Positions 1 through 16,263 of a DNA stretch of 64,000 nucleotides are shown here, piece after piece. Location: assembly GCA_023662725.1 (NCBI GenBank), contig JAMPIL010000007.1, forward strand, positions 25,474 through 89,473. The letters are read 5' to 3'. The notes below the pieces were generated by a model, which was not told the origin of the DNA, did no database searches, and saw nothing but the letters and a program-made list of their open reading frames with translations. Numbering within the stretch: position 1 is the stretch's first letter; each line of letters starts with the position of its first letter. Both the position numbers and the translations under genes were made by a program. This DNA comes from Ruminococcus flavefaciens (GTDB taxonomy: Bacteria; Bacillota; Clostridia; Oscillospirales; Ruminococcaceae).

Positions 1-204
1 AAAATGGCTATGGTCATAGATCCTAAGTTCAGTGGCTGGAAAGAGGCAGTAGAAGAATGCTTCCTTGAAAACATCAAGAAAAATCAGCTTATAAACACCA
101 ATTGGAAATTTGAATGGACAGACTTGATTTGTCCTGAAGCTGAAACAGGTAAATATAGATTTTTCAAAAATGAGATAGTGACAAATAATGAAAAAGCGGA
201 TTGA
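1..204 (+). CDS. 3' end of an unknown gene (partial)
   Basis: This is an open frame that enters from the left edge of the window, so the true start is not visible. The last 67 codons give a soluble, charged tail with no motif I recognise. Its stop overlaps the start of the ABC transporter by 17 bases, so the two are probably co-transcribed and translationally coupled. By position it is the first visible member of the peptide-maturation operon. Its function is unknown. Confidence 0.5.
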   Translation, partial: KMAMVIDPKFSGWKEAVEECFLENIKKNQLINTNWKFEWTDLICPEAETGKYRFFKNEIVTNNEKAD

Positions 205-1993
205 AGATTTAAAAAGTTTTTTCAATATAATTGGCTTTAGTATGAAAATCAGCTTTAAAACTTCTAAGCTATATTTCATCTTAAATATTATAATATGCTG
301 CTGTATTGCAGCTACTCCGTTTGCGTCAATTTACCTGGCCAGCAAGACCATAGGCTTTGTTACAGAGGGCCTTATGGGTGGTAAAACTAAGGATGAGATG
401 ATAAAAGGCTATGCTTTGCTTATCATTTTAACTCTGCTTTTGAATGTGGCAGAAAACGTATTACAATCTATCTCAATATATATTAGAAAGATGTACACCG
501 AACTTATTAATTCAAAATTAAAAGTTGACATAATGAAAAAAGCTGCTTTTCTGGAAATGAAACATTTCGACTCTCCGGATTTTTTTGATACGCTCAATGA
601 TGTCAATTACAATAGCTTTATGATTTCGGATATGGTTTTTGTTATTTTTGAGTTTTTTAGGTCGTTCGTACAGATGATAGTGGCATTTGTGAATATAGCA
701 CTGTGGAAGTGGTTTGCACCGTTAATTGTTCTTATTACGTCTGTACCAACGATGCTTGTTAAGCGAAAACAACTAGATTCTGAATATGTTTTTCAGAAGA
801 GTAATATGAAATATGACCGTCAGATGTTTTATGTCACGAACATAGCTGTTGATAGAGAGTATTCCTCAGATGTTAAAATGTACGGTTTGTTTCCTGAACT
901 TAAACACAAATATTCTGTCATCTGGAAAGAAATGTTTAACAAAAGGAGAAAGCTGATCAGAAAATACACAATACTTGCAATGCTGTTTGACTGTTTGCCG
1001 CATATTGTAATGACTATTTTTTTGATAATACTTGGTATCAGCGTACTAAACGGCAATATGACTGTACAGAATTACAGCTATATAAATGGTCTTTTATCTC
1101 AGCTTAGTCCTTTAATACTTAATGTTATTATTTGTTATGGCGTTATTTTCGACAGTAAGATACGTCTAAAAAACTATATGAGTTTTATGAATATGTCTAC
1201 TGAAGATGATGATGTGGTCTGTGAAGAATTTAATTGCAATGATTTTGAAATTGAATTCAGAAATGTTTATTTCAGATATAATGATAAAAGTGATTATGTA
1301 TTAAAAGGGATCAGCTTTAAAATAAGAAGCGATAAAACCTATGCGTTGGTTGGTATGAACGGATGCGGAAAAACTTCGATAATCAAGTTAATACTCAGGT
1401 TTTATGAACCGACGGACGGTGAGATACTTATTAACGGAAAAAATGTAAAATGTTATTCAGTAGATAGTATAAGAAAGCTGTTCAGTCCTATGTTTCAGAA
1501 ATACAATAATTATGCATTTACCGTTAAGGAAGATATTTATCTCTCGGATATTGATAATAAAGCCGATGATAAGAGAACTATTTCGTCAGCGTTGCAGAGC
1601 GGTGCAGACGAATTTGTCAAGGATTTTGATGAAAAATATGATACATACCTCACAAGGCAGTTTGAGGATGGCGTTGATCTTTCAGGCGGACAGTGGCAGA
1701 AGATAGCGCTTTCAAGGACTATTTTCAGAGATTCTGTTATGTATATACTTGATGAACCTTCATCTGCGCTTGATGCTGAGTCTGAAGATGAACTCTTCAT
1801 GAGTTTCGATAAGTTATTTGAAAATTCCGGAGCTATCCTGGTTTCTCACAGGTTATCTAACGTAAAAAAATGTGACAGTATAATTGTTATTGATGACGGC
1901 AAAGTGTTAGAAGAGGGAACACATGAGTATCTGATGGAGCATCCAAATAAATATGCACATATGTTTCAGATTCAGGCGAATAAGTATCAGTAA
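188..1993 (+). CDS. ABC transporter with fused permease and ATPase, peptide exporter type
   Basis: The 601-residue protein has an N-terminal hydrophobic half with about six membrane spans (residues 15-340) and a C-terminal ABC ATPase. The ATPase shows a Walker A (GMNGCGKTS, near residue 388), signature LSGGQ (near 497), Walker B ending ILDEP (near 520) and an H-loop histidine in VSHRLS. No C39 peptidase domain precedes the permease, so leader removal must fall to another protein, probably the subtilisin-like protease encoded next. As a half-transporter it should act as a homodimer in the membrane. It lies 14 bases before the protease gene and in line with the maturase genes, so export of the matured peptide is the most likely role. 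A lipid or drug exporter of the same fold cannot be excluded by sequence alone. Confidence 0.85.
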   Translation: MKKRIEDLKSFFNIIGFSMKISFKTSKLYFILNIIICCCIAATPFASIYLASKTIGFVTEGLMGGKTKDEMIKGYALLIILTLLLNVAENVLQSISIYIRKMYTELINSKLKVDIMKKAAFLEMKHFDSPDFFDTLNDVNYNSFMISDMVFVIFEFFRSFVQMIVAFVNIALWKWFAPLIVLITSVPTMLVKRKQLDSEYVFQKSNMKYDRQMFYVTNIAVDREYSSDVKMYGLFPELKHKYSVIWKEMFNKRRKLIRKYTILAMLFDCLPHIVMTIFLIILGISVLNGNMTVQNYSYINGLLSQLSPLILNVIICYGVIFDSKIRLKNYMSFMNMSTEDDDVVCEEFNCNDFEIEFRNVYFRYNDKSDYVLKGISFKIRSDKTYALVGMNGCGKTSIIKLILRFYEPTDGEILINGKNVKCYSVDSIRKLFSPMFQKYNNYAFTVKEDIYLSDIDNKADDKRTISSALQSGADEFVKDFDEKYDTYLTRQFEDGVDLSGGQWQKIALSRTIFRDSVMYILDEPSSALDAESEDELFMSFDKLFENSGAILVSHRLSNVKKCDSIIVIDDGKVLEEGTHEYLMEHPNKYAHMFQIQANKYQ

Positions 1994-2007
1994 CAGAGGG
2001 TGAAAAA

Positions 2008-3123
2008 GTGAGTAGTTTGAAAGCGGCTATTATCGATGACGGAGCTGCAGATATACTGTTTGAAAAAGTAAAAAATATTACTGTAAGCGAAGATTTACAG
2101 CTGAATGAAGATGCAAGTTTTACAAACGAACTTAGTCATTCGTCCATTTGTATGAGTATCATAAAGAAGTATTCAGATATAAGTGATGTTGAATGGCTGA
2201 ATATAGATATTATGAATTCGCATCATAGAAGCGGTGTCAACAGCTTTATAAAAGCGCTTGAATATTGCCGCAGAAATAATATTAAGCTGATACATCTTAG
2301 TATAGGAAGCCGAAACTTTAATGATTTTGAAAAGATAAGAGCTGAAATAGAACTACTGCTTCAAAAAAACACAGTGATAATTGCAGCTCTGTCAAATGAA
2401 AATGTATTTACTGTTCCAGCTTGCATTGACGGAGTTATCGGAGTGAAGTTTTCAATTGATCTAAAGGATAATGAGTTGTATTATCTTGATAATGCTCCTG
2501 AAAAGATAAACTTTCTTGCGTCGTCAAGGCATATTCTAAGACTTGAAGGAAAGCTTGACATCTCTTCAATATCGAATAGTTATGCAACGCCTGTTGTTAC
2601 AGCTGCGGCAATAAATGTGTTAAAAACAGAACCATTTTTGAATGCTGATGGTGTAATTGAGAGAATAAAAAACAAATCAAAGAAAGATTTCTTAGTTTTT
2701 GAAAAAACAGAACCATTCATTGATGGAAATGCAGATATGCTTACTATTCCGGTAGTTCTTGTTAAACTCAATAACAGTTCGCTTCAAAGCAAGCTTGTAA
2801 AAGAGCTTAAAGAATTGTTCATACAAAATGGATATAATGCATTTTGCGCTTATAGTACTACCGATGGTGAGAACTTGCTGCCTGAGAAAAGACTGCTGAA
2901 TTATCTTCTGTATATTCAGAAATTTTACAATAGTGATATTATTATCCTTGGATATTCAGATGAAAAGCTGTTTTCAGATTTTCAAAGCTATGATGTTATA
3001 GTTTCTGATGATAATGATCAAAAAGATACTTCCGTTGCCTTAGTGCATTATTCAAAAATTAGTGATCGTAATAATGTATTTAATAAGATATTGCAAATAT
3101 TTTATGAAGGAGAATATCAATGA
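2008..3123 (+). CDS. subtilisin-like (S8) protease of the peptide cluster
   Basis: Translation starts at a GTG with a good AGAGGGTG Shine-Dalgarno. The protein has no signal peptide and should be cytoplasmic. Three short segments match the S8 triad: an Asp in AAIIDDG (residue 10), a His in LSHSS (residue 44) and a Ser in SNSYATP (residue 191), which corresponds to the family GTSMATP. The spacing between motifs is much shorter than in secreted subtilisins, and residues 230-371 form an unrecognised C-terminal domain. Its 3' end overlaps the radical SAM gene by 4 bases. Known CcpM-type clusters include an S8-like protein, and leader cleavage of the precursor is the inferred job. The motifs are divergent, so activity needs testing. 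Confidence 0.7.
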   Translation: MSSLKAAIIDDGAADILFEKVKNITVSEDLQLNEDASFTNELSHSSICMSIIKKYSDISDVEWLNIDIMNSHHRSGVNSFIKALEYCRRNNIKLIHLSIGSRNFNDFEKIRAEIELLLQKNTVIIAALSNENVFTVPACIDGVIGVKFSIDLKDNELYYLDNAPEKINFLASSRHILRLEGKLDISSISNSYATPVVTAAAINVLKTEPFLNADGVIERIKNKSKKDFLVFEKTEPFIDGNADMLTIPVVLVKLNNSSLQSKLVKELKELFIQNGYNAFCAYSTTDGENLLPEKRLLNYLLYIQKFYNSDIIILGYSDEKLFSDFQSYDVIVSDDNDQKDTSVALVHYSKISDRNNVFNKILQIFYEGEYQ

Positions 3124-4550
3124 ATAATACCCCGTATATAAAACTTTTGAAAACACCGTTGGGTAAGTATTTCTACGATGTTAACAAAAACGATATTGTA
3201 AATATCAGTGATGAGCTGTATGTATACTTAGGAGCGAAAGATATGAATGCTGATCTTTCACAGTCCGCTGCTGAGGAGATGGAATTTCTTAAGAGTAACG
3301 GTTATCTTTCAACTCATAGAGTTAAGTTTATAAAGCATTATCTGACTGACAAAATTGAAGATTACCTCGACAGAAAGTGTTCCAAACTCACTCTTCAGCT
3401 TACACAGAACTGTAATTTCAGATGCTCATATTGTCCATATACAACTGCTGAGTTTTATACAAATCGTTCACACAATTCAAAAAGAATGAGTGAGGAAGTT
3501 GCAATTAAAGCGATAGATTTTCTTGCAGATCATTCACGAAGTAAACAGTATGTTTCAATAGCTTTCTATGGCGGCGAGCCTTTGCTTGAATTTCCGCTTC
3601 TCAAGAAGCTGGTTGCTTATGCAGAAGAGGTATTCATAGGCAAGAGAATTGATTTTACGACAACGATTAATGGTTCATTACTTACTGAGGAGAGCATTTC
3701 TTTTTTTGAGAAACATAATTTTGATCTTATGATAAGTATTGACGGCACCAAGAAGGTTCATGACAGAAACAGAAAGTTTGCGGCAACCGGTAAGGGAACT
3801 TTTGATACTATAGTTAATAATCTGGAGGGTGTATACAACTCTCACAGAGAATATTTTAATAATAAAGTAACTATCAATTCGGTTATGGATCCACGTCTTC
3901 CTGCAAAAGAATACTACGAACTTGAGAATAAAAATGAGATGTTTCAAGAAGTCAATATTATGCGTACAGTTGTAGATGACTTTAATAATGTTAACAGACA
4001 TGCATTTGATGATAATTTCGTCATAGACACTTCAATACTTACATTTAAGGCGTTGATGTCATTAATAAACAGATATCCCAAGGATAAGGTCAGCAGTAAT
4101 CTTGTAGTCGCTGAGCTTACTGAAAAGCAGAAATCCGAAAAGTTTATAAGACCTGGTAACCAGCTTGGTGATACAGATGCTCCTTCTGGCCCATGTATTC
4201 CGGGAAGCAAACTGTTAGTTGACGTAAATGGTACAATACATATTTGTGAAAAGGTCAGCGAAACTTCTAAGGCATTTGTCCTTGGAAATGTTTATGATGG
4301 ATTTGATTACGATAATATTAGGAAGTTGCTGAATATAGGAGCGCTTACTGCTGAAAAATGTCAGAATTGTTTTGCATTCAATTTATGCTCTATTTGTCAA
4401 AGAAAATGTAATGTAGGTGACGAACTTTCAGGTGCTGTTAAAAGTGAATCCTGCGAGTGGTCAAAGAATATTGCATTGGATATGATCTATAATAAAATAT
4501 TCTATAGCGAACTGAGCAGTATTCTTAATAGCGAGGTGGGAATAAAGTGA
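3120..4550 (+). CDS. ccpM: radical SAM/SPASM peptide maturase, CcpM-like
   Basis: The 476-residue protein carries the radical SAM cluster motif CNFRCSYC (Cys 98, 102, 105), the glycine-rich GGEP segment near residue 155 and a cysteine-rich C-terminal SPASM region (residues 355-460, including CQNC, CSIC and QRKC). The N-terminal 90 residues look like a peptide-recognition domain. Known members of the CcpM family modify Cys-rich clostridial precursors through auxiliary iron-sulfur clusters, typically forming thioether crosslinks. The small precursor here has three cysteines and lies 1.6 kb downstream. The gene overlaps both neighbours by 4 bases, which places it firmly in the operon. The family name is assigned from gene context and overall pattern; the radical SAM/SPASM call itself is secure. 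Confidence 0.85.
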   Translation: MNNTPYIKLLKTPLGKYFYDVNKNDIVNISDELYVYLGAKDMNADLSQSAAEEMEFLKSNGYLSTHRVKFIKHYLTDKIEDYLDRKCSKLTLQLTQNCNFRCSYCPYTTAEFYTNRSHNSKRMSEEVAIKAIDFLADHSRSKQYVSIAFYGGEPLLEFPLLKKLVAYAEEVFIGKRIDFTTTINGSLLTEESISFFEKHNFDLMISIDGTKKVHDRNRKFAATGKGTFDTIVNNLEGVYNSHREYFNNKVTINSVMDPRLPAKEYYELENKNEMFQEVNIMRTVVDDFNNVNRHAFDDNFVIDTSILTFKALMSLINRYPKDKVSSNLVVAELTEKQKSEKFIRPGNQLGDTDAPSGPCIPGSKLLVDVNGTIHICEKVSETSKAFVLGNVYDGFDYDNIRKLLNIGALTAEKCQNCFAFNLCSICQRKCNVGDELSGAVKSESCEWSKNIALDMIYNKIFYSELSSILNSEVGIK

Positions 4551-5704
4551 GAATAGCAATTTATCCTTTTAATGCGGAATGTATGGCTTTTTCAGAATTC
4601 AAGGACTTACTTGACTCTGAATATTGCTTCAGTGAGGCAGCTTCGCCGAGAAGCTGGGGATTTGCGGGAATGGATATTGAAACGGTGGACGGTCCTGAAA
4701 AGATCAAGAAGTCGCCTAAAGAATTTACAAAGGCAAACGATATGCTTGTTATTCCTGATTTCACAATTGAACCGTCTGCTGCCAAGTCTCTGATAAATGA
4801 GATAGTTAATTATATACCGTCGGTTAAGAATGTATTCTGCTGTGCTTGTTTTGAAGATATACAGCTTAATGAAATTAAAGAAGCGTGTGCAAGATCTAAT
4901 ACAGAGTTTATTAATGTTTTAGATTTTGGTGCAGCTGAAAAAGAATTCGCGTATTACGAAACACCTGAAAAAAGATATGCATTCACAGATAATAAGAGTG
5001 TCTTTAAAGTCTACAAAGAGGTCACAAACTGTGATATTCCTATTTGCGCAGTATCAGGAGAATGGGAAACAACAGGAAAGTTCAATATTGAACTAAAGCT
5101 CCTACGCAATCTTAGAGATCAGGGATACAATGTATCAATGGTTGGTTCTAATTTTTTTTCATCATTCTTTGGTGTAAATCGTTTTCCTGATTTTATGTTT
5201 AGTGGTGCAATTAGCGAAACAGAAAAACCTCATGTTTTCAACAGATATTTGAATCGGATTGTAGTGAATGAAGATCCTGATATTCTGATCGTTGGTGTTC
5301 CCGGTGCTATGGAGCGCTATAACGACTATGAGACAAACAGATTTGGTATTCTTCCATTCATAACTTTTCAGGCTATCAGACCGGATTATTTAATCTTAAC
5401 TACTGTATACAGAGAAAAAAGCAAATCATTACTTGAAGAACTCATAAATAAGTGCAAGTACAGATACGGCGTTAAACCCGATACGATACATTTATCAAAT
5501 GCGTTGCTAGAACCAAGTGAACTCTACACAGAAGGCATGGAAATTGATTATGAAAATATGGATAGAGTTAATTCTGTTATAACAAATGAGTATGCTGATA
5601 CTGACGGATTTGTGGTAAATCTCTTGGCTGACGGCTGTGATAAGATTGTAACTGAGAGATTAATAAGAAAACTCGGCGGTATCAGTGTTGGAGCAAATGA
5701 ATAA
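4547..5704 (+). CDS. peptide maturation system protein, TIGR04066-like
   Basis: Translation begins at a GTG overlapping the stop of the radical SAM gene. The product is a soluble protein of 385 residues. The opening segment (RIAIYPFNAEC) and the mid-protein alternation of strands and glycine-rich turns (for example ICAVSGEWETTGK near residue 165, then VGVPGAMERY near 245) resemble the TIGR04066 family. That family is defined only by its occurrence beside CcpM-type maturases. The segment near residue 165 looks like a nucleotide-binding loop similar to dethiobiotin synthetase/NIP-type P-loops, so nucleotide use is possible, but this is inference. Its biochemical role is not established. Confidence 0.65.
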   Translation: MRIAIYPFNAECMAFSEFKDLLDSEYCFSEAASPRSWGFAGMDIETVDGPEKIKKSPKEFTKANDMLVIPDFTIEPSAAKSLINEIVNYIPSVKNVFCCACFEDIQLNEIKEACARSNTEFINVLDFGAAEKEFAYYETPEKRYAFTDNKSVFKVYKEVTNCDIPICAVSGEWETTGKFNIELKLLRNLRDQGYNVSMVGSNFFSSFFGVNRFPDFMFSGAISETEKPHVFNRYLNRIVVNEDPDILIVGVPGAMERYNDYETNRFGILPFITFQAIRPDYLILTTVYREKSKSLLEELINKCKYRYGVKPDTIHLSNALLEPSELYTEGMEIDYENMDRVNSVITNEYADTDGFVVNLLADGCDKIVTERLIRKLGGISVGANE

Positions 5705-5717
5705 GGGGACTGTAAAA

Positions 5718-5987
5718 ATGAATGATATCAGAGAAAAAGTGAAAAACATACTCATATCTGAGTTTGATGTAAAAAATGACAGAATAAAAGATGGTGAAGA
5801 CATATCATTTTTTCTGGCAAATATAGCTTTTGATCCAAAAAGTTTTATTTATTTTGTTCTTTATATTGAAAAAGCCTTTGGCATAAGATTTTCGGAGAAT
5901 GATTTTGACAACGAGAATTTTTATAATCTCGGTGGATTTTGTGATATTTTATCAGATTATTGCAAAATCAAGGAGAATGCTTGCTAA
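5718..5987 (+). CDS. acyl-carrier-related protein of the peptide cluster
   Basis: I take the ATG at 5718, preceded by AAGGGGAC, rather than earlier alternatives inside the upstream gene. The 89-residue product has the size, acidic charge and helix pattern of an acyl carrier protein, including IEKAFGI, which corresponds to the second helix after the attachment site. Where a carrier protein has Asp-Ser-Leu, this sequence reads FDPKSF, so the phosphopantetheine serine is shifted or lost. This fits the acyl-carrier-related (not true ACP) family known from CcpM clusters. A role as a docking or scaffold subunit is more likely than acyl transfer. An adenylating enzyme is encoded 5 kb downstream. Confidence 0.7.
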   Translation: MNDIREKVKNILISEFDVKNDRIKDGEDISFFLANIAFDPKSFIYFVLYIEKAFGIRFSENDFDNENFYNLGGFCDILSDYCKIKENAC

Positions 5988-6109
5988 GGCAAGCACGCAA
6001 AATAGAGAATACTTATCTTTTGAAGTTTTCATTTTTATACTATGGTTTCACTTTCGTGAGTCGGGCGAGATTGAAATATATTAAAATTGTAACATAAGGA
6101 GTAATAATC

Positions 6110-6292
6110 ATGAAAAAATTAAGAAAAGTAAATATTTCAAATAATACTATTGAGATGTATGGTTGCTATAAGGATAAATTCTGTCAGTGTATGGGCACAT
6201 ACGCTTATTCATCACAATATTCTGGAAGCTCTATATATCATATGGTTACTCAGACAACAACAACACCAGTTAATCCTGGTGGACACAAGTAA
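6110..6292 (+). CDS. Cys-containing RiPP precursor peptide (CLI_3235-type bacteriocin)
   Basis: A 60-residue open frame starts at an ATG with an AAGGAG ribosome site 8 bases upstream. The basic opening MKKLRK and the segment NNTIEMYGC match the leader pattern of the CLI_3235 bacteriocin precursors that accompany CcpM maturases. Cysteines sit at 19, 25 and 27. The C-terminal half is rich in Ser, Thr and Tyr, includes a run of four threonines, and ends in PGGHK. The three cysteines are candidate substrates for the radical SAM enzyme, and the Ser/Thr tail is a candidate glycosylation site given the neighbouring glycosyltransferase. A terminator lies 57 bases after the stop, so the peptide may be made in excess of downstream enzymes. 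Confidence 0.75.
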   Translation: MKKLRKVNISNNTIEMYGCYKDKFCQCMGTYAYSSQYSGSSIYHMVTQTTTTPVNPGGHK

Positions 6293-6348
6293 TTAAGCAT
6301 AAAATAAAACAATAAACTTGATCCGACTTAAGAGTTTAACAGAAAAAA

Positions 6349-6384
6349 TGAGGGCAAACCTGAAAATTTGCTCTCAGTTTTTTC
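6349..6384 (+). terminator. intrinsic terminator after the precursor gene
   Basis: A 10-base-pair stem (TGAGGGCAAA with TTTGCTCTCA, one G-T pair) is followed after one G by six T residues. It separates the maturation operon from the glycosyltransferase gene and probably lets partial read-through set a high ratio of precursor to tailoring enzymes. Confidence 0.85.
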
Positions 6385-6442
6385 TGATAATTGGATAATG
6401 ATTTATTTTAATTGATTTTGACAAATATTAGGAGATCTTAAA

Positions 6443-9007
6443 ATGAAAAGTAAGGGAAAAATGCTCACTGTTGGAGTAATACTGGATAAAAGAGGCGACC
6501 CGCCTTATGTCAGCGTGAACAAACTATGGCGTGAGACCATTGATATAATATCTCAAAAGTATTATACAGTTGTTTTTGAAGTGAATTCCTACTTCGTAGA
6601 GAATAATGATGAATATAAAGAATTTGCCGATAAGATCGATGTGTTGTTTCTTTTATCTCCGTATTATACAGTTGACAGAACTTACAAAGAATTTCCCATT
6701 GTGTTTTATGGGCTTGGTTCTATGCAAAAAGGTGGAGCATGGCTTGCGGATAATCATTATACTTTCAGATGCTATGACAAGGTTATCCTCAATTGTACAA
6801 GCTGTGTGAATATTTTTGATAAGCTCGTAAAGGAGCAGTCATTAAGCAGAGTTATGATCCCTTTTGGTGTAGATACAGATATATTCAGATATGCGGCAAA
6901 TAAAACTCTGCTCAGAAAAAAATACAATATACCTGAAGATGCATTTATTGCAGTATATTCAGGAAGAATAAATCATCAGAAAAACCCGTTTGTACTTCTA
7001 AGCGCTATCCGGGATCTGAGAAAAAAGTATAACAATCTGGTATTTATGTTTCTTGGTTCATTTGATGACTTTTATATACCGGAATTCAATGAAAACAAAG
7101 CTATTGATATTAAAGAAGCATTTATTTCTGAAGTGGAAAACTTTGGAATTGAATCAGGTATCATTCTATTTGATACTCAGGATGATACAAGTAAATATGC
7201 TGAATTATTGGGTCTCGCTGATATAGGGATCAATGCTACAACTCTTATAAGTGAAAATTTTGGATATACACCTGTTGAAATGCAGGCTTGCGGTCTAGCT
7301 GTTGTTGGTACATCATGGGGCGGTCTTAAAGACACTATAATAGATGAAGTAACAGGTTTTAAAATAGAGACAGTTCACAGTAAATTTGGTGCAAGGATCA
7401 ATATGGAACAGTTGAAAGAAAAAATCGAATTCTTGATAACACATGATGACATAAGAAAACAAATGTCACAGAGTGCAAGACTTAATGCAGAAAATAACTA
7501 TTCCTTGAAATTGTTTGCAAGGAATATTAATGATATCATAAATGAAACTTACTATGATTATATTGAGTGTGATCGTAATGACAGTGATTATGCCGTTGAT
7601 GATAGAATATTTGATATGTCAGAAAAGATACATAACAAATATAGAAGTCAGGAGCGCCATGTAAGTTGGGAACATCTTCATCCTGATCTTGATTACGAAT
7701 TATATGAAATGGTAGCTTCTGAATGTGCTGATAAAAAGGCTGAAGATACAGTATGGTTCGGTGATAGTATAATATCGAAGGGGTTTGACTGGGAATACAG
7801 TAATGGAACTCTGGTTTCACATGATCCAAGGTGGAATAATAATTTTGAACTTTCGAGTTGTAAGATAAACAGTGAAGAAATGCGTGTTATGGAAAATATT
7901 ATTTCCGGCGAAACAGTATTGTCACTTGAAAACAGAATGAATATAACTCATAATGAGCTTATAGAATTACTGTACCGCCTTACTGATAAAGGCTTTATTA
8001 TTCCATGGAACAAAACCAATACAGTTCAAACGTCTGTGGCTGCTGTTGTTATTCCACATTACAGTACCGGAACGGAAATAGAACTGTGTTGGCTTAAGAA
8101 TGCTTTAAAAAGCGTTGAAGTGCAGACTGACAAAGAATGGAAGATTATCATTGTTGATGATGCTTCTCCCGAAAGCCATGTGAAAGAATATTTGAGAACA
8201 ATATCAGAAGAAAGTCATAACAGGATAGAAACAGTTTTCCTGAGAAAAAACAAGGGGCCTGGAAATGCAAGAAATGTAGGTGTATTGAGAGCTTCTATGC
8301 TTGGATGTCCATTTATTCTTTACCTTGACTCAGATGATATAGCATCGCCAGAAAGAATTGAAAGGACAAGAAATGCTTTTATGACGCATCCGTCTGTTGG
8401 AGTTGTTTACAGTTCTTTTGATGTTATAGACGAAAACGGAAAGAATGTTGAGAATATAAATATTCTGCCGTCCATTCGCGAAATACAGGAACAATTAAGA
8501 TCAGATCCGCCGCAAGGAAAAGGCGTTTGGCGTAAAATGGGCATTGAAACAGGATACATAAACCTAACTTCTTCAACTTCCGTAAGGACTTGTGTAGCGC
8601 TTAAATATCCTTTCCCTCAGGAAAGAGTTTCAGAGGATTATTATACATGGCTTGTTTATTCGGCAAGTGGATGGGAATATATGTATCTTGATTCACTCTG
8701 TACAAAATACAGGATTCCACAAAATAAAGATGGCTCAAGAACTCGCAGCCTTGTGGGCGGTAATCATATGTTTAATTTGAAAAAGAGCCTGATTGATGTA
8801 AAGGGATTTCAAAAGGCTCTTGAACTTGCCTGCAATAACGGTGAGATCAACAATGATGATAAAAACATGCTGATGATAGCTTTCCTTAAGAAAAAGGCAG
8901 AGTCAATGAAAAAAGACGGCGAAGATGAGATAGCAAGAAACTATATCCAAAAGGCTGATAGGATCAAACAGAGTATAACCAGTCTCTCCTCAGCTTACAA
9001 TCATTAA
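6443..9007 (+). CDS. two-domain glycosyltransferase (GT4-like plus GT2-like)
   Basis: The 854-residue protein joins two transferase folds. Residues 1-375 resemble a GT-B, family 4 enzyme, with a SGRINHQKNP donor-loop segment and the ENFGYTPVEMQACG motif near residue 270. Residues 380-530 form a linker with a small winged-helix-like part. Residues 535-800 resemble a GT-A, family 2 enzyme, with VVIPHYS at its start, IIVDDAS and the metal-binding LDSDD near residue 630. It has no signal peptide or clear membrane span and should be cytoplasmic. It follows the precursor gene directly, so sugar transfer to the Ser/Thr-rich peptide or to another cluster product is a reasonable inference. The fusion of two families suggests sequential addition of two sugars. 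Confidence 0.8.
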   Translation: MKSKGKMLTVGVILDKRGDPPYVSVNKLWRETIDIISQKYYTVVFEVNSYFVENNDEYKEFADKIDVLFLLSPYYTVDRTYKEFPIVFYGLGSMQKGGAWLADNHYTFRCYDKVILNCTSCVNIFDKLVKEQSLSRVMIPFGVDTDIFRYAANKTLLRKKYNIPEDAFIAVYSGRINHQKNPFVLLSAIRDLRKKYNNLVFMFLGSFDDFYIPEFNENKAIDIKEAFISEVENFGIESGIILFDTQDDTSKYAELLGLADIGINATTLISENFGYTPVEMQACGLAVVGTSWGGLKDTIIDEVTGFKIETVHSKFGARINMEQLKEKIEFLITHDDIRKQMSQSARLNAENNYSLKLFARNINDIINETYYDYIECDRNDSDYAVDDRIFDMSEKIHNKYRSQERHVSWEHLHPDLDYELYEMVASECADKKAEDTVWFGDSIISKGFDWEYSNGTLVSHDPRWNNNFELSSCKINSEEMRVMENIISGETVLSLENRMNITHNELIELLYRLTDKGFIIPWNKTNTVQTSVAAVVIPHYSTGTEIELCWLKNALKSVEVQTDKEWKIIIVDDASPESHVKEYLRTISEESHNRIETVFLRKNKGPGNARNVGVLRASMLGCPFILYLDSDDIASPERIERTRNAFMTHPSVGVVYSSFDVIDENGKNVENINILPSIREIQEQLRSDPPQGKGVWRKMGIETGYINLTSSTSVRTCVALKYPFPQERVSEDYYTWLVYSASGWEYMYLDSLCTKYRIPQNKDGSRTRSLVGGNHMFNLKKSLIDVKGFQKALELACNNGEINNDDKNMLMIAFLKKKAESMKKDGEDEIARNYIQKADRIKQSITSLSSAYNH

Positions 9008-9114
9008 GCGGAATATTGGCAAAAGTACAAAAAATAATAAAAACATTGCATTCAGAGAATGTCATGTATTGGTCATTAAGGAGAGGCTGAACAGAGCAGA
9101 ATAGGAGAATATAT

Positions 9115-10059
9115 ATGGCTTTTTTACTTACAAATTCAGTTGCAGTTGCCGGTCACGAAAAAACTATAAAACTATTGAATGAAGGTAGATCTTCTTTAGA
9201 TGCGGTAGAAAGCGGAATACGACTTGTAGAATCTGATCCGGAAGTCAGGTGGGTTGGTTTCGGAGGTCTTCCCAATATGCTGGGGAAAGTACAGCTTGAT
9301 GCAGGAATAATCGATGGTTCAAATTTCCATGCTGGTGCTGTCGGTGCTATTTCCGGATACGCTCATCCTATTTCTGTTGCGAGAAAACTGATGGATGAGC
9401 TTCCTCATGTTCTTCTCGTTGGAGAAGGTGCAGAGAGATTTGCTCATGACATAAATGCTGAAAGATCTGATAATCTTACAGATATTTCTGTTGCTGAATG
9501 GAAAGCATGGCTTGATGAGCATCTTAATGAAAGTGAAAAGAAGAATTGGCCGAATATATCTCTGATAAGGCCTTCGCAGCTTACTGCCACAAATAAAACT
9601 GCCAAGGGAACGACTGTTTTTCTTGCGATAGATAATAATGGAAATATTAGCGCAGGTTCAAGCACGAGCGGATGGAGTTTTAAATATCCCGGCAGGCTCG
9701 GAGATTCTCCTGCTATTGGCTCAGGCATTTATGCTGATAACAGATATGGAGCAGCAGCTTGCACAGGAATGGGAGAGCTTACTATACGTTCAAATACTGC
9801 ACATTCCGTTATTCTGTATCTTAAAATGAAAATGAGTTTGAAAGAAGCCTGTCTTGAAGCGCTTAATGATCTCAGAAATATTCATACTGATTTCAGAGGC
9901 GGAGTTACCATCTATGCTATGGATAAAAATGGTGAACACTGTGCCGTTTCTGCAAGAGCTGAACAGGATGGTCTCCCTGAATGTGATCCGTATTTTTGGT
10001 ATTGGAACGGTGTTGAGCCATCTGTTCAGAAGATCAATGCAGATATGTATGAATGGTAA
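9115..10059 (+). CDS. glycosylasparaginase/isoaspartyl peptidase-like Ntn hydrolase
   Basis: The 314-residue protein matches the N-terminal-nucleophile asparaginase fold. It opens with the early segments SLDAVESG and VGFGGLPN. The precursor processing site lies before Thr166 in KGTTVFLAID, followed by SAGSSTSGW, GRLGDSPAIGSG and TGMGE, which line the substrate pocket in this family. Self-cleavage before Thr166 would give alpha and beta chains. Known members remove GlcNAc-Asn linkages or isoaspartyl and N-terminal Asp residues. Beside a glycosyltransferase and a RiPP cluster it could trim a glycosylated or isoaspartyl peptide, but this pairing is inference. It has no signal peptide. A TAGGAGA ribosome site sits 6 bases before the ATG. 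Confidence 0.8.
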   Translation: MAFLLTNSVAVAGHEKTIKLLNEGRSSLDAVESGIRLVESDPEVRWVGFGGLPNMLGKVQLDAGIIDGSNFHAGAVGAISGYAHPISVARKLMDELPHVLLVGEGAERFAHDINAERSDNLTDISVAEWKAWLDEHLNESEKKNWPNISLIRPSQLTATNKTAKGTTVFLAIDNNGNISAGSSTSGWSFKYPGRLGDSPAIGSGIYADNRYGAAACTGMGELTIRSNTAHSVILYLKMKMSLKEACLEALNDLRNIHTDFRGGVTIYAMDKNGEHCAVSARAEQDGLPECDPYFWYWNGVEPSVQKINADMYEW

Positions 10060-10080
10060 ACAGCTTTTGTGAGGTTTGAT

Positions 10081-11139
10081 ATGTTTAAGGATTGGTTGAA
10101 TGCGAATTATTTTAGGAATAGCTCCGGCGGAATAGACACTACAGTAGACTCACTCTCTGATTGTCTGTCACAAACGTCTTATGTTATCGGTAAATTGAAA
10201 TTCGGAATTCCTGATTTTTACAGAGCTTACCTGAACGAGAGTACATTGAAGCTGGAAATTAAGAATGATGAAATATTATACTTCGGTACGATTGATAATG
10301 TATGGATAAAAGGTATGATAGGCATACTTCAGTATAATGAGGGAATTACTCCTTCTGACAGGATCTCAGGAGTTTTGAAGGACGGTGAACCTGCGATAAT
10401 TCATCCGATAGTTGAAAGACTTTCGTTTCAGGAGTTTTATGATCCGGATTATAATGACAGCAAGCCTAAGTCGGATCACTATTTTTCGGTTATAGGTGAA
10501 GATAAGAATAACTTGTTTTTTGTCGATAATCCTGCCGTTATCAATATGAATAAGTTTACTCCGTATAAAGCGAACAGCGAAGTTGGCATTATCAGCAAAA
10601 AAGAATTTGATGAGGCTTTGACAGATTTTTGTGAGGTCGGTGCATTTGTATTTGACCTTGACAGAATGAAAGAGGTATCAAAACAATGCGAAGAAGTTTT
10701 TAGGCTTTCTTATAATAATTACGATAAAAAATCATTATTCAATGATGATGTATATACATTTTATGGTGCAGAGGCAATAGAAAAACTATCGGAACTGTTT
10801 GAAAAAGGTGATATGTATTTTTCACAGGAAGCTCCGTCGCATGACAGAGATATCATGAAGTATTTTATTTGGAGGATCTGGCACATAAAAGGAAGAAGAA
10901 AACTTCAGGTGCAGTATCTTAGAGAGGCTTACGGAAATGACAACAGAGCGGCTTCTGATCTTGTTGATGCACTTATGGATTCAGTTAAATTCTGGGATCT
11001 TTTAAACAACAACCTGTACAAGGATTTTCTGAAAGGCAAAGAACGTATAGACTCGAAATATGTTCAGATAACGGACGAAATATTAACTGCTGAGAACAAA
11101 ATGAATCAGGCATACCGCAGCTTTATAGAAACCATCTGA
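10081..11139 (+). CDS. BtrH-like (papain-fold) tailoring protein, tentative
   Basis: I prefer the ATG at 10081, which has a GTGAGG site 6 bases upstream; a GTG at 10069 is also possible. The 352-residue soluble protein contains DHYFSVIGEDKNNLFFVDNP near residue 140. This resembles the conserved His-containing segment of butirosin BtrH N-terminal domains, an acyl or aminoacyl transferase family with a papain-like fold. A matching catalytic Cys is not obvious; CLSQTSYVIG near residue 28 is the best candidate for that position. The C-terminal half is helical and unrecognised. BtrH-type enzymes take acyl groups from carrier proteins, which would suit a cluster with a carrier-like protein and an adenylating enzyme. 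The assignment is low confidence. Confidence 0.45.
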   Translation: MFKDWLNANYFRNSSGGIDTTVDSLSDCLSQTSYVIGKLKFGIPDFYRAYLNESTLKLEIKNDEILYFGTIDNVWIKGMIGILQYNEGITPSDRISGVLKDGEPAIIHPIVERLSFQEFYDPDYNDSKPKSDHYFSVIGEDKNNLFFVDNPAVINMNKFTPYKANSEVGIISKKEFDEALTDFCEVGAFVFDLDRMKEVSKQCEEVFRLSYNNYDKKSLFNDDVYTFYGAEAIEKLSELFEKGDMYFSQEAPSHDRDIMKYFIWRIWHIKGRRKLQVQYLREAYGNDNRAASDLVDALMDSVKFWDLLNNNLYKDFLKGKERIDSKYVQITDEILTAENKMNQAYRSFIETI

Positions 11140-11208
11140 GCGATAATAACGTAATCTATAAAATGTTAATGATCAGAATATAAGATAAAAAGAATAGAGT
11201 GATATAAT

Positions 11209-12705
11209 ATGAATAATGTTCTTGATATGATCGAAAAATCCGCAGCTCTTTATGCTGACCGAATAGCATTTTCTGATCATAAAAAAGAGATCACATACAA
11301 AGAGCTTATTGCAAAGGCTAAATCTGTTGGACAGTATATTCTTGATATTAATCCTCAGCACAAACCTGTTATCATAATTACACAGCAAGATATAGAGTCA
11401 GTTATAATGATTCTTGGTGTTCTTTACAGCGGAAATGTTTATATTCCTATGGACAGCAGCTATTCTGATGAAAAAATACTATCCGTTCTTGATAAAGTTT
11501 ACAGTAACATAGTTTTGTGCCGAAAAAGTGATGTGCGTGTTTTCAAAACTAAGGCTGATATACATTTCTGCACTTATGAAGAAGCAAAGGACTGTAAGGC
11601 GGATAGTGATATGATCCGAAAGATAAGAGAAAGCATTGCTGATACAGATCTGCTGTGCTGTTTTCTTACGTCGGGTACAACAGGAGAACCCAAATGCGTA
11701 ATGAAATCTCATCACAATATTGTTAGTATGGTGAGGGCGTTTACAGAACAGTTTGATTTTTCCAGCAATGATGTTTTTGGCTGTCAGACTGCTTTTGATT
11801 TTGATGTTTCAAATAAATCGGTCTTTATTTCACTATATCTTGGCGCTCAAGTATATATAATCCCGAAAGAATTGTTTATTTTTCCGGGTAAACTTGTTAC
11901 GGATTTCAACAGGAGAAAAGTATCCGTTCTGATTTGGTCCGTATCGGCGCTGACGCTGCTTGCAAGAGTAAGAATAATGAAAAACGCAAAGTTCCTTTAT
12001 GTGAATAAGATCATGTTTTCAGGCGAGTCAATAGCTTATGATACGATCAGGTACTGGAAAGAAAATCTTGAAGAGACTTTATTTGTAAACCTTTATGGAC
12101 CGACAGAAATGACCGGTAATGCTCTCTATTATGAAGTCAAGTCGATAGATGAAAACAAGATCATACCGCTCGGAAGTCCTATGCCAGATACAAAAGTATA
12201 TTTGCTTGACGAAAACAGAAGGCTTATTACTCAGAATAACGTAAAAGGTGAAATATATATAGGCGGTAACTGCCTTGCAATGGGCTATTATAACGATAAT
12301 GAAAAAACAAAAAAGGCATTTATTAAAAATCCTTTTAGTAAAAGCTATTCTGATATCATATATAGAACCGGTGATATTGGATATAAAAACGATGATGGTG
12401 ATTATGTATTTTCTGACCGGAGAGATTTACAGGTGAAACGAAACGGATATAGAATAGAACTGTCGGAAATAGAGGCAATAGTTATGAGGTCCGGTCTTAT
12501 TTCTGTATGCTGTTGTGTATTCAGAAGATCAAAAAACGAAATATGCCTTTATTATCAGTCTGAAAGTGAATGTTACAATCAGCTTTATAGTCTGATGAAG
12601 AGAGAACTTTCTTGGTATATGATTCCTAACAAAATTGAAAGAATAGATCATATACCGTTAAATTCACATGATAAACCTGATAGGGAAAAACTTATAGAAA
12701 TGTAA
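11209..12705 (+). CDS. AMP-forming adenylating enzyme (ANL family)
   Basis: The 498-residue protein has the ANL core motifs: LTSGTTGEPK (A3, residue 156), NLYGPTEMT (A5, near residue 298), YRTGDIG (A7/A8, near residue 385) and RDLQVKRNGYRIELSEIE (A8 hinge, near residue 405). The C-terminal DKPDREKL (A10) supplies the catalytic lysine. Length and order fit stand-alone amino-acid or aryl-acid adenylation enzymes such as DltA. The substrate cannot be read from sequence. It would load an acyl group on a carrier or small molecule, yet the only carrier-like protein in the cluster lacks the usual serine. It is the last intact gene before decayed DNA. Confidence 0.85.
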   Translation: MNNVLDMIEKSAALYADRIAFSDHKKEITYKELIAKAKSVGQYILDINPQHKPVIIITQQDIESVIMILGVLYSGNVYIPMDSSYSDEKILSVLDKVYSNIVLCRKSDVRVFKTKADIHFCTYEEAKDCKADSDMIRKIRESIADTDLLCCFLTSGTTGEPKCVMKSHHNIVSMVRAFTEQFDFSSNDVFGCQTAFDFDVSNKSVFISLYLGAQVYIIPKELFIFPGKLVTDFNRRKVSVLIWSVSALTLLARVRIMKNAKFLYVNKIMFSGESIAYDTIRYWKENLEETLFVNLYGPTEMTGNALYYEVKSIDENKIIPLGSPMPDTKVYLLDENRRLITQNNVKGEIYIGGNCLAMGYYNDNEKTKKAFIKNPFSKSYSDIIYRTGDIGYKNDDGDYVFSDRRDLQVKRNGYRIELSEIEAIVMRSGLISVCCCVFRRSKNEICLYYQSESECYNQLYSLMKRELSWYMIPNKIERIDHIPLNSHDKPDREKLIEM

Positions 12706-12726
12706 GAGGGGTTAGATATATAATAA

Positions 12727-13238
12727 ACCAAAGCATTTGAAGAATTTATACCTGATGTTATGAACGGTAGTATGAAATCTTTCAAGCAGGAAAAATATCA
12801 AGTATTAAATTTCACTATAAAAAAGATAAGTCAAATAATGGCATTCTTGACCTTAGTTGGGACCTTTCAAAAATAAGTGCGTTTTTGAGAGCCTATGATT
12901 ACTTTGTACTCTCTCCATTCGGGAAACCTATGGTAAAGTACGATAGTGAAATGTATATTTGGAAAAAGTATAAAATAATGACATATAACTCAACTTCAAA
13001 GAGCATCTGTATTGATGAACGCAACCTTAAAGTAAAGGGAAATGGTTTAAAAATAATTCTGATTGGAATTGAGAAGTATATTACTGATAGTGAGTCTTTG
13101 TATGACAGCTGTTCATTTGTAAGCTTTAAAAGAACTTCTGTATCAAATTTAAAAGAAAAATGTACAGACGTAATTTGTCACACATCGGCAACACAGACGG
13201 CGACTTGCTCCTTGCCTTTATCAAAGATATGCTCGTAG
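12727..13238 (+). pseudogene. formyltransferase remnant
   Basis: Two overlapping frames read as one broken protein. The first opens with KAFEEFIPDVMNGS and QEKYQVLN. After a shift near 12810 the second reads FHYKKDKSNNG, LDLSWDLSKISAFLRAYD and PFGKPMVKY. This matches the part of methionyl-tRNA-type formyltransferases containing the GxIDWS...IxxFIRA...PGA block. The N-terminal catalytic region (Asn-His-Asp and the folate-binding SLLP loop) is absent, and stop codons lie just upstream. A sugar or amino-acid N-formyltransferase would suit the tailoring cluster, so this may be a lost cluster enzyme. Its 3' end runs into DNA bordering the recombinase remnant. Confidence 0.65.
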
Positions 13239-13308
13239 ATGTTCATGGTAGTCCCCTCGCCAAATGGTAACACACTGTCGTATAAGTAATAAATAACGTA
13301 AAATTGCC

Positions 13309-14665
13309 TTAAAACAGGCTTCTTCTGTCAGGCAGAGGTTCATCGAGCAGCTTGTAGTTGATGTAGATTTCCCTGGGTTTGCCCTCGACATAGGCATCAA
13401 GGGTGATGTACTCTATAAGCTCCAGACACATCTCACGAGTAAGCTCCTGAACATCGGTGTACTTCTTCAAACGAGCGATAAAAAGCTCTACATCTTCCTC
13501 CTCCTGCTTGATTGCAGAGAGCTTCGCTTCAAGTTCTAATACTTCTACGGACAGATCTTTCTGCTCGGCTTCATATTTCGCCATGAGCTTCATTGATACA
13601 TCCTCAGATACCTTTCCGAGAACCTTGTCCTCATAGATTGAGTGGATCAGCGTATCAAGCTCCTGCAAGCGGAATTTGCCCTCTGTCAGCTTCTTGGTAA
13701 CGGCATACTGCTGCTCGTTGTGCTTTATTTTGTGTGCAAGGAATTTCGCTCTTGCAGCGTTCTCGTTCTCTACAACAAGGCTTGCCATACTGCGGATATC
13801 TTCAAGAACAACCGCATCAATATCGCCCATTTTGATGTAGTGGCTCGGACAGTATCGCTTACCGAACTTTATTGCCACAATCCTGACAGTAAATCAGACC
13901 GCTTAAATTTGCCACATATTCGCTGCTGTTGCGCTTGCTCTGTGATACGAACTGCTCCATTTCTCTCACTCTGTCACACAGCTCCTGAGAAATAATAGGC
14001 TCATGCATATTCTTCACAACGCTCATATCTTCTTCATCACGTTTTATCGTCTTGTGGTTTTTGTAAGAAACCGTAGTCGTGCGGAGCTGAACGAGATGTC
14101 CGAGGTAGATGTAATTGTGAAGAATCCGTCTTACCGATTCGGGATTCCACAAATGTCTTGTACGGCGCACAAGTCGCACGATACTTTCCTGCCTTAGCAT
14201 TAGCTTCGATAACAGCCTTGATCTTTTTTGATGTTGAAGCGGCGTGCCATTCGTTGAACAAATTCACAATTGACATCATGTCAAGCGCCGAGGAATCTTT
14301 GCTTGCGGTATCCACGTTATCGTTCAGTGCGATGAAACGAATATTGTAACTCGGAAAAAAATATAATATACATATCTGCCGACCTCGATGTAATTACGAC
14401 CAAAGCGGCTGAGGTCTTTGCAGATTATCAGATTTATCTTTCCTGACTGAGCATCGGACAGTAATCTCTGTACCGCAGGTCTGTCAAAGTCCGTACCACT
14501 CCAGCCATCGTCCACATAGGTATCAACTAGATTCCAGCCCTGCTCTTTTACATATTTGGTGAGAATAAGTTTTTGATTTTCTATTGGCAGGGATTCGCCG
14601 GCACTCATATCCTCTTATGAGAGACGAACGTAAATTCCTGCATTATAAATGGTCTGCTTTGCCAT
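13309..14665 (-). pseudogene. large serine recombinase, disrupted
   Basis: Reading on the minus strand from the ATG at 14665 (AAAGGAG upstream), the first residues give GIYVRLS and then an in-frame TAA at 14617-14615. Reading resumes with the resolvase catalytic domain: ENQKLILTKYV, DDGWSGTDFDRP, ICKDLSRFGRNYIE. Two or more shifts follow near 14350 and 14190, with a deletion before the recombinase domain (NPESVRRILHN, YIYLGHLV). A further frame change near 13870 splits the zinc-ribbon segment (YCQDCG) from the long coiled coil and C-terminus. Recombinases of this type integrate and excise clostridial transposons and ICEs. This copy cannot make an intact protein and marks a dead mobile element. 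Confidence 0.85.
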
Positions 14666-15071
14666 AATAGCTCCTTTCAAATCAAAGCAGTACCATACCG
14701 GCATTTTTAGTATAACGCAAAATGTCGGTATAGTCAATGCCTTGCCGACAAATTACGCCAGTAATGTTTCTTTCAAGGCTCGCTCAAATGCGAGTCTGCC
14801 GATCACTTCGTCAATATTTTTATCTCCGTCGAAGCGGCTGTGAACGACATATGTCTTTCCAACAATCACATACTCTGAAACCCTCTCGGGGTAGTTTTTG
14901 AACTTTGTATTGAGTTCAACCTCTTTCCTGCCTTCTCTTTCTCTACGGCAGTAGTCTTGTTGTCCAGTTTATATTATTCCTTTCCGCAGCTCGATCCATT
15001 TCAACTTACTGCTACTTATAAATGTCACTCCCCATGATTATGGGAAAAATCCTCACGGATAAATAGTCCCT
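14666..15071 (-). pseudogene. spacer with a small recombinase-linked ORF remnant
   Basis: The stretch contains a minus-strand frame ending at a TAA at 14753. It can be read back to about 14980 as GRKEVELNTKFKNYPERVSE, then YVIVGKTYVVHSRFDGDKN and GRLAFERALKE. It resembles the small proteins often encoded beside serine recombinases in clostridial transposons (TnpW-like), but I cannot find a convincing start. The remainder, near 14990-15071, shows no gene. Low confidence. Confidence 0.35.
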
Positions 15072-15416
15072 TTAATCTTCGTCACTAGCTAATCTGTCAT
15101 AGAACGAAATATCATCGTCCTCATTTTTGTTATCAGACGAATGATCACTGTCAGCATTTTCACCACCGACTAATTCAAGCAGCTCGGCATCGGACAAACA
15201 GCACGATCTCAGCTTCTGCAAAAGCTGATGTTCAGCAGAATTGATCACGTCAAACTCTCTCGGCTTACAATTGTTCTCCTCATCCATAGCAAGACGAGAA
15301 GCTTCTTTCATCTTGTCCTCCGCCGTTTTCTTTTTAGCAGTATCGCTTGCAATGCGAGCTTCCAAACTCTTGATTTTCTCGATGAGCTGTTCTCTCTTTT
15401 CTGTGTAAATGCCCAT
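15072..15416 (-). CDS. small coiled-coil protein, mobile-element associated
   Basis: This 114-residue protein has an N-terminal coiled coil (residues 3-45, rich in Lys and Glu, with EKIKSLEARIASD) and an acidic C-terminal tail. The arrangement resembles DUF3847-type proteins encoded next to mobilization genes in clostridial elements, but no diagnostic motif is visible. It lies between the recombinase remnant and an IS3 element on the same strand and probably belonged to the same transposon. An IS3 terminal sequence begins about a dozen bases upstream of its start, so its promoter may have been lost. Confidence 0.45.
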   Translation of the reverse strand: MGIYTEKREQLIEKIKSLEARIASDTAKKKTAEDKMKEASRLAMDEENNCKPREFDVINSAEHQLLQKLRSCCLSDAELLELVGGENADSDHSSDNKNEDDDISFYDRLASDED

Positions 15417-15427
15417 TCAAAAATTAC

Positions 15428-16262
15428 TGTGTATTGTCAACCCAAAATAGGACGGAAATTATTTAGCCGAGTGAGAAGATTTAAACGGAAGCGGAGAAAG
15501 ATAACCAAGAGAGCCGTGAATGCGAGAATTATTGAACCAATTAACGGAATCAGCGAGTTCTGACTGTAGCTGATCAAGAGAATCAAAAGTTTTATTCATA
15601 ACAAATTCCGTTTTAAAAATCTTGTATGTAACCTCGGCAACAGCGTTATCTTAGGGCAACCCTTATGACTAAGAGAACGGGTAATTTTAAAAGCATGAAT
15701 AAGCTCATCAATTATCTTATTTTTAAATTCATTTCCTCTGTCGGTATGAAAAATCTTCACCTTAGAAAGATTAACGCTGCTGCTTAGAAAAGCGTCATAC
15801 ACAAGTTGAGCGTCTCTGTGAGTGCCTGCTGAATATCCTATTATCTCACGATAAAACAAGTCGATCAGAATGCAGATATAGCACCACTTATCACGGACTC
15901 TCAAGTATGTAAGATCGCTTATTACTACTTCCAGCTGCTCTCTGTCGTTGAATTTTCTATCGACTTTATTCTCGATTTTTTCTTCATTGTACGACGTTTT
16001 ATGAACCTTGAACTGCTTGATCGTATAATTTGATACCAGCCTATATTTGCCAATAATACGTCGAATTCTACGTTTCGAGGCGATGATATTTCTCTTCGCA
16101 AGTTCAATTTTTATCTTCCTTGAACCGTAATTATTTCGTCTTTTTCTTGTAATAGACAAGACTCCTCGGAATACCGAGTTTTCTGCACATTGCGATGATA
16201 CTGTACTTATGTCGGTTCGCAAGGATTATGATTTTGTCAATAATCCTTGACACAAATTTAAG
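15428..16262 (-). mobile_element. IS3-family element remnant (copy A)
   Basis: A minus-strand transposase with an rve/DDE core lies between a probable terminal repeat at 15428 (TGTGTATTGTCAACCCAAAA) and a truncated 5' end near 16255. Visible parts are the HTH/OrfB opening (HKYSIIAMCRKLGIPRS), SDLTYLRVRDKWCYICILID with the first Asp, and FHTDRGNEFKN with the second. A frameshift near 16135 separates the first two parts. Another near 15655 separates the second Asp from the region of the last Glu and the C-terminus (DSVNWFNNSRIHGSLGYLSP). The coding remnant spans 15459-16330. Group resemblance is to IS150-like members. OrfA is missing, so the element is dead. Confidence 0.8.
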
Positions 16263-16263
16263 G

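Follow-up and report, generated by a model that had tools for sequence, protein, structure and literature searches.

Among the closest described relatives of the gene cluster examined here, which opens a stretch of 64,000 nucleotides of Ruminococcus flavefaciens DNA (the window, by which the whole of that stretch is meant), is the SacP23 system of Paenibacillus polymyxa, a CcpM/CLI_3235-type system for a ribosomally synthesised and post-translationally modified peptide (RiPP). The two have in common CcpM, a radical S-adenosylmethionine (SAM) maturase, a TIGR04066 protein, a TIGR04069-like protein, an S8-type protease, an ATP-binding cassette (ABC) exporter and a short precursor (PMC10731318). 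In comparison with what is described of SacP23, the canonical acyl carrier protein (ACP), the PaaK-type ligase, the GT4 and GT2 glycosyltransferases, the N-terminal nucleophile (Ntn) hydrolase, the BtrH-like protein and, sometimes, an ANL enzyme are present only here, and the precursor is poorer in Cys (PMC10731318). An earlier note on this DNA had placed the glycosyltransferase, Ntn, BtrH-like and ANL genes outside the described core, and they are indeed absent from the SacP23 gene table (PMC10731318).

Radical SAM RiPP genes with a glycosyltransferase next to them are already known (PMC7491314, PMC10352776). Mycofactocin, likewise a radical SAM RiPP with a GT2 glycosyltransferase, is glycosylated by MftF, whereas the acyl-carrier step predicted here does not feature in its description (PMC7491314). 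Radical SAM genes also stand beside glycosyltransferase genes in RiPP-like areas of Bacteroidales, although a carrier protein, PaaK, an Ntn hydrolase and a BtrH-like protein are named only for the present locus (PMC10352776). Lincosamide synthetase resembles the locus in its acid-activating enzyme (the LmbC/CcbC A domain), carrier protein, Cys-protease-like amide synthase (LmbD/CcbD) and adjoining sugar genes (PMC4351081, PMC12945683). It differs in that the genes considered here belong to a RiPP cluster with a PaaK-type constant loader, and the likeness is one of fold and residues only. The precursor and maturase of mycofactocin differ from the CcpM type. Butirosin BtrH is an acyltransferase using a carrier-bound acyl group; Pfam BtrH_N reaches only one of the five members of the BtrH-like family in the CcpM clusters (E 0.091), and a sixth member not at all. 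Glycosylasparaginase (1p4k) and aspartylglucosaminidase (1apy) share with the Ntn hydrolase the family, the catalytic Thr and the pocket residues, but here Gly rather than Asp precedes that Thr and the gene lies inside a RiPP cluster. Searches of the open-licence literature returned no description of this gene set, nor any of R. flavefaciens RiPPs, of BtrH together with a RiPP or of AziU3. The set is a variant of CcpM-type RiPP systems with extra modules, and its acyl step, should the pathway favoured below be correct, would operate in the manner of a lincosamide synthetase.

The full set constitutes a conserved 12-gene cluster of a Ruminococcus-type bacterium, represented by this R. flavefaciens stretch, and on balance it probably encodes one RiPP pathway in which, judging from gene families and gene order, a peptide would be crosslinked and glycosylated, after which the upstream ACP would supply an acyl or aminoacyl group. 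The same genes in the same order are met with in other species, which excludes chance. The positions and families that had been noted for ten genes of the window were borne out by the listing of open reading frames (ORFs) and by NCBIfam and Pfam matches, some of which score below cut-off, and all ten are on the + strand. The cluster exceeds the span first noted, beginning before the window with two further genes, the canonical ACP and the PaaK-type ligase; upstream of the ACP, conservation is poor. The features are as follows (lengths in amino acids, aa).

L003:10683-10958, upstream of the window: canonical ACP gene, 91 aa, GFDSL motif
1..204, + strand: 3' end of the gene for the PaaK-type adenylate-forming ligase (whole gene L003:10930-12204, 424 aa)
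188..1993, + strand: ABC exporter (PF00005, E 1.4e-25; PF00664, E 2e-7)
2008..3123, + strand: S8 subtilisin-like protease, probable leader peptidase (GTG start; NF049966 QhpE match)
3120..4550, + strand: CcpM-type radical SAM/SPASM maturase (TIGR04068; CxxxCxxC at residue 98)
4547..5704, + strand: TIGR04066 peptide maturation system protein (220.3 bits, cut-off 200)
5685..5987, + strand: acyl-carrier-related protein, TIGR04069-like (24.5 bits), lacking the phosphopantetheine Ser
6046..6076, + strand: possible stem-loop of the 5' untranslated region, sequence conserved in three species
6110..6292, + strand: precursor peptide, 60 aa, leader common to L025, L026 and L004, no family match
6323..6329, + strand: conserved 3' element CCGACTT, complementary to the loop of 6046-6076
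6349..6376, + strand: intrinsic terminator between precursor and glycosyltransferase, sequence conserved in three species
6443..9007, + strand: GT4+GT2 fusion glycosyltransferase (PF00534, E 4e-22; PF00535, E 1e-19)
9115..10059, + strand: Ntn hydrolase of the glycosylasparaginase/isoaspartyl peptidase family (PF01112, Asparaginase_2, E 3e-65)
10069..11139, + strand: BtrH/CcbD-like protein (GTG start; C32, H137, D153)
11209..12705, + strand: stand-alone ANL enzyme of amino-acid adenylation type (TIGR01733, E 1.5e-87, 294 bits, cut-off 317)

The distribution of the genes bears on this reading. A search of 125 genomes belonging to the genus with the fused glycosyltransferase gave a glycosyltransferase match of some kind (E 0.001 or better) in 41, while matches at E 1e-164 or better were confined to four loci in three genomes, the next match having an E of 3e-13. 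CcpM matches above 380 bits amounted to six loci in five genomes, and all four glycosyltransferase loci are among these six, inside the cluster; under random placement by genome, with relatedness ignored, three of three glycosyltransferase genomes would fall within the five CcpM genomes with a chance of 3e-5. The proposal that the glycosyltransferase, Ntn and BtrH-like genes go with the CcpM core thus holds, and the co-occurrence in related genomes, on which the earlier note had let it depend, was found.

Five CcpM clusters carry the second half or part of it, namely those of the window, of C20 in the same genome, and of genomes G022, G035 and G377. All 12 genes are collinear in G022, and eleven are kept in G035, where a solute-binding protein and two permeases stand in the place in which the ANL gene would follow. 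C20 (L004 2944-13167), a second and diverged CcpM cluster of this genome whose precursor has six Cys, has GT4 and BtrH-like genes upstream, directly before ACP and PaaK and on one strand with the core; the GT4 and BtrH-like genes are separated by a remnant of Ntn, 39 residues long and with a stop, and GT2 and most of the Ntn gene appear to have been lost. G377, of another genus, has on one strand and in this order the core, three precursors, a solute-binding protein, two permeases, HlyD-like and MacB-like genes, GT4, GT2, Ntn and BtrH. Downstream of both clusters of R. flavefaciens there are serine-recombinase pieces (window 13309-14608 and 15596-16824, both - strand; L004 13681-14445, - strand) and, further downstream in the window, rve-type transposases, which suggests that the flanks of both are mobile.

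A wider survey comprised 63 regions round CcpM matches from the genus, family, order and class, including the two loci of this genome; the CcpM matches G210:C8, G296:C2, G1063:C54, G1063:C239 and G1080:C3 were left out, as were weaker radical SAM matches except G001, G080 and G035:C314. By our own iterated profiles the regions hold 61 CcpM ORFs at 350 bits or more, and within 9 kb and on the same strand PaaK accompanies 11 of them, GT4 five, BtrH four, Ntn three and GT2 three; with the extended G377 region the last three counts become five, four and four. All five GT4 loci carry PaaK and ACP. In an IQ-TREE phylogeny of the 61 CcpM sequences the five glycosyltransferase loci and two PaaK-only loci (L107, L108) form one clade (support 100/98), and the other four PaaK rows (L111, L112 and two in L113) a separate one (100/100). 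The contig of L108 ends just after its precursor, and a search of the rest of the genomes to which L107, L108 and L111-L113 belong yielded neither a BtrH nor a close glycosyltransferase relative. Scanning genomes more widely with two glycosyltransferase seed peptides, which are blind to G377, returned two loci only, in the genus-mates G035 and G022. L111 and L112 also have an ANL-type gene and L113 has two PaaK-CcpM pairs in a row, all three being without glycosyltransferase and BtrH genes. Of the seven loci in the CcpM clade, three have solute-binding-protein genes (L083 1162-6691 in G377, L026 593-4479 in G035, L107 13093-19625 in G566), with two permeases alongside in G377 and G035 and as a run of four such genes in G566; they may serve in sugar uptake or as receptors.

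As to the core maturation genes, the claim of a CcpM-type core was upheld; the TIGR04066 match is over its cut-off, the CcpM and TIGR04069-like matches are below theirs. The window maturase scores 446.8 bits with TIGR04068, whose cut-off is 500, whereas a paralogue elsewhere in the same genome reaches 515.3 bits; the enzymes of C20, G377, G566 and G559 that lie in its tree clade pass the cut-off, so that the window enzyme is a divergent member of a CcpM clade, not a certified CcpM. The S8 protease matches NF049966 QhpE at E 2.1e-16 and 59.9 bits (cut-off 165), with conserved-motif positions that we take to be the catalytic triad. The small core protein, which had been called carrier-like, falls short of the TIGR04069 cut-off of 70 yet has the corresponding position in the cluster. 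On this point the earlier note is revised: in a column alignment the phosphopantetheine Ser is missing in 41 of 46 rows, all five glycosyltransferase-type clusters included, and the true ACP lies upstream. The precursor consists of a leader (MKKLRKVN..NNTIEMY), a variable core and a Thr-rich tail, with a C-terminal Lys. Its core contains only three Cys, that of L025 two. The CLI_3235 precursor family TIGR04065 is not matched by the precursors of the window, L025, L026 or C20, while the one scanned of three in G377 passes (31.5 against 26). In that cluster, with its split glycosyltransferase, the three tandem precursors (L083 6954-7545) are rich in CxC motifs.

The glycosyltransferase comprises a GT4 domain (approximately aa 1-385), a linker and a GT2 domain (approximately aa 530-800), with the GT4 and GT2 motifs in place. 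Its description as a fused two-domain enzyme is accurate for the window but does not extend to G377, where GT4 (525 aa) and GT2 (337 aa) are separate genes. Its best NCBIfam match is TIGR04157 (glyco_rSAM_CFB, E 3e-23), and MftF is matched as well (E 1.4e-10), both below cut-off, and envelope polysaccharide families are also among its matches. The linker at approximately 440-525 may, from its sequence, be a winged helix resembling a RiPP recognition element (RRE). RREs fused to PF00535 glycosyltransferases have been reported in a 2025 survey (PMC12710340). PqqD of Pfam found no match in the linker, where matches were weak only and included winged-helix families in L026; hhalign against the CcpM N-terminus gave a weak result (probability 4%, P 0.01, best of seven targets), and the structure model is too poor for fold comparison (pLDDT 37).

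The closest solved relative of the Ntn hydrolase is glycosylasparaginase 1p4k (E 8.8e-47; the isoaspartyl type gives 2.3e-35). The catalytic Thr, T166, and the glycosylasparaginase pocket residues T184, R194, D197, T217 and G218 are invariant in all four members. Glycosylasparaginases have Asp before the catalytic Thr and isoaspartyl peptidases Gly, and the residue here is G165; the only NCBIfam match is PRK10226 beta-aspartyl-peptidase (E 9e-39, 133 bits, cut-off 567). Between the window and G022 the Ntn hydrolase is the best conserved gene product (95% identity, as against 47% for the ACP-like protein and 43% for the precursor), from which its substrate would likely be a group that stays the same, as opposed to the peptide core, which varies. 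Its gene lies directly downstream of GT2 in the four clusters that have it.

For the building-block genes, the PaaK-type ligase (TIGR02155, E 3.7e-26, 91.6 bits, cut-off 646) is present in all five glycosyltransferase-type clusters, as is the canonical ACP with GFDSL, seen in the alignment for four and from its sequence for the fifth, L026. The family of the ANL enzyme was confirmed, its relatives being the amino-acid A domains LgrA and DltA, and it has Asp (D199) at the position binding the alpha-amino group of the substrate; however, an orthologue occurs in only two of the five clusters over the regions examined, so that it is a variable component and PaaK the constant activating enzyme. A 206-aa "ANL" piece beside the G377 core proved to be a distant C-terminal match (24% identity) and not an orthologue.

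C32, H137 and D153 of the BtrH-like protein are invariant in five of five members, with spacing as in CtaG variants. The best structural matches of a low-confidence model are CcbD, CtaG and AziU3, at 6-12% identity in the structural alignments, and of these top matches CcbD and CtaG are carrier-dependent amide-forming enzymes, CcbD being the one that unites the halves of the antibiotic celesticetin. The window copy matched no family, and the family profile met only noise among PDB sequences (best E 1). The protein is, as the model and residues suggest, probably a cysteine-protease-fold amide synthase; a GFDSL-type ACP in each of the five CcpM clusters bearing its gene would be consistent with a carrier-bound substrate. 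A family-wide search with the BtrH profile matched one of 247 genomes, G000 itself, G377 apparently being outside the sample. A further BtrH-like gene of G377 lies in a row with a relative of amino acid--[ACP] ligase, an ACP and two ABC transporters (L156 2652-9030), without CcpM within the 9.7 kb examined, the contig ending near the start of the row.

The two halves of the cluster are divided by the terminator. Terminator scanning of window 6250-6460 found two, one per strand, against 0.0 in shuffles, and over 1-16000 nine against 7.6 expected; the sequence is kept in both genus-mates, where the scan calls L057 but not L058, whose fold nevertheless shows the stem. Downstream of the terminator, a pattern scan of the window's + strand gave no sigma-70-like site; in L058 there is one weak match, which overlaps the glycosyltransferase start. 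The terminator would be an attenuator, allowing more precursor than tailoring enzyme to be made. In all three species the AGUCGG ahead of the precursor is the complement of CCGACUU, a strictly conserved sequence just before the terminator, making possible a long-range RNA pairing that would enclose the precursor gene. The regions of the two elements fold better than shuffles (z -4.1, -2.6 and -3.0) with this pairing in all three centroids; the local hairpin 6046-6076 is the minimum-energy form in L058 only, the window fold having begun inside it. Searching the genome with the precursor 5' element returned only this locus, and no Rfam family was found at window 1-16500.

In the pathway that we favour, CcpM, TIGR04066 and the ACP-like helper would crosslink the core of the 60-aa precursor, and GT4 and GT2 would attach one or two sugars to the peptide, perhaps at its Ser/Thr-rich tail. 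From their families and presence, PaaK may activate a carboxylic or amino acid and load the canonical ACP, with ANL adding or replacing a building block in some species. The BtrH/CcbD-like protein, on its residues and, weakly, its fold, could take the acyl group from ACP to Cys32 and join it to an amine of sugar or peptide. The Ntn hydrolase would act on a group that stays constant while the peptide varies, most likely by cutting an amide on the sugar or acyl unit and so exposing or deprotecting an amine, which is the weakest step. The S8 protease would remove the leader and the ABC protein export the product. A more specific version, held only tentatively, is a lincosamide-synthetase-like module acting on a ribosomal peptide, with crosslinking, an amino or amide-masked sugar, unmasking by the Ntn hydrolase and ACP-dependent acylation by the CcbD-like enzyme; to our knowledge, a peptide-sugar-amino acid conjugate of that kind has no parallel.

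The history of the block is not simple. The glycosyltransferase loci are not a single clade within the 100/98 clade, and three changes are required among the 11 PaaK rows, whereas 150 of 500 shuffles required three or fewer; the scatter of these loci implies that loss or transfer of the block has happened. The conserved terminator, the coming and going of ANL, the transporter genes between precursors and GT4 in G377 and its BtrH-like gene apart from CcpM would all suit a glycosyltransferase-Ntn-BtrH-ANL block that is a separate pathway, for a glycoconjugate or an aminoglycoside-like small molecule for instance, merely adjoining the RiPP core. We nevertheless regard this as improbable, and the second half as probably not separate, in view of C20 and G377: in C20, GT4 and BtrH precede ACP, PaaK and the core on one strand, and elsewhere too GT4 keeps to CcpM clusters (five of five, in one CcpM clade), while the only canonical ACP seen lies at the far end of the core and the terminator is followed by no promoter-like site in the window and one weak match in L058. 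Equally small is the probability we give to the block acting in producer immunity or surface decoration instead of product tailoring: ORF listing and family scan brought to light no separate immunity gene in the part of the cluster inside the window, and envelope polysaccharide families are among the glycosyltransferase matches, but these also include TIGR04157, a family with a name that points to radical SAM clusters, and MftF, which glycosylates a RiPP (PMC7491314), both below cut-off.

Other alternatives concern single steps. The acyl or aminoacyl group might be placed on the peptide itself, at the N-terminus or a side chain, with the glycosyltransferase independent of it; this we think rather unlikely, as the BtrH-like gene accompanies GT4 in all five CcpM clusters having it and the acceptor of BtrH itself is an aminoglycoside, although the window precursor has a C-terminal Lys. 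Among the characterised relatives, CtaG is described as moving hydroxybenzoyl to a carrier-bound beta-alanine chain and not to a sugar (PMC6772006), and CcbD accepts several amines, its natural acceptor being an amino sugar (PMC12945683). That the Ntn hydrolase is a plain isoaspartyl peptidase or asparaginase, engaged in leader removal or Asp repair with no part in a sugar step, is less likely than not: the Gly before the catalytic Thr and the PRK10226 match speak for it, whereas the better match to glycosylasparaginase, a conservation far above that of the peptide and the position directly after GT2 in four clusters speak against it.

If the single-pathway reading is correct, one conserved Ruminococcus-type cluster would join the logic of ribosomal peptides with carrier-protein amide synthesis on sugars, and the BtrH-like family of Firmicutes would acquire a testable role. 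It would mark out the CcpM-type clade as a place in which to seek glyco-acyl peptides, and the sequences point to a candidate new peptide glycosyltransferase pair and a putative Ntn tailoring enzyme.

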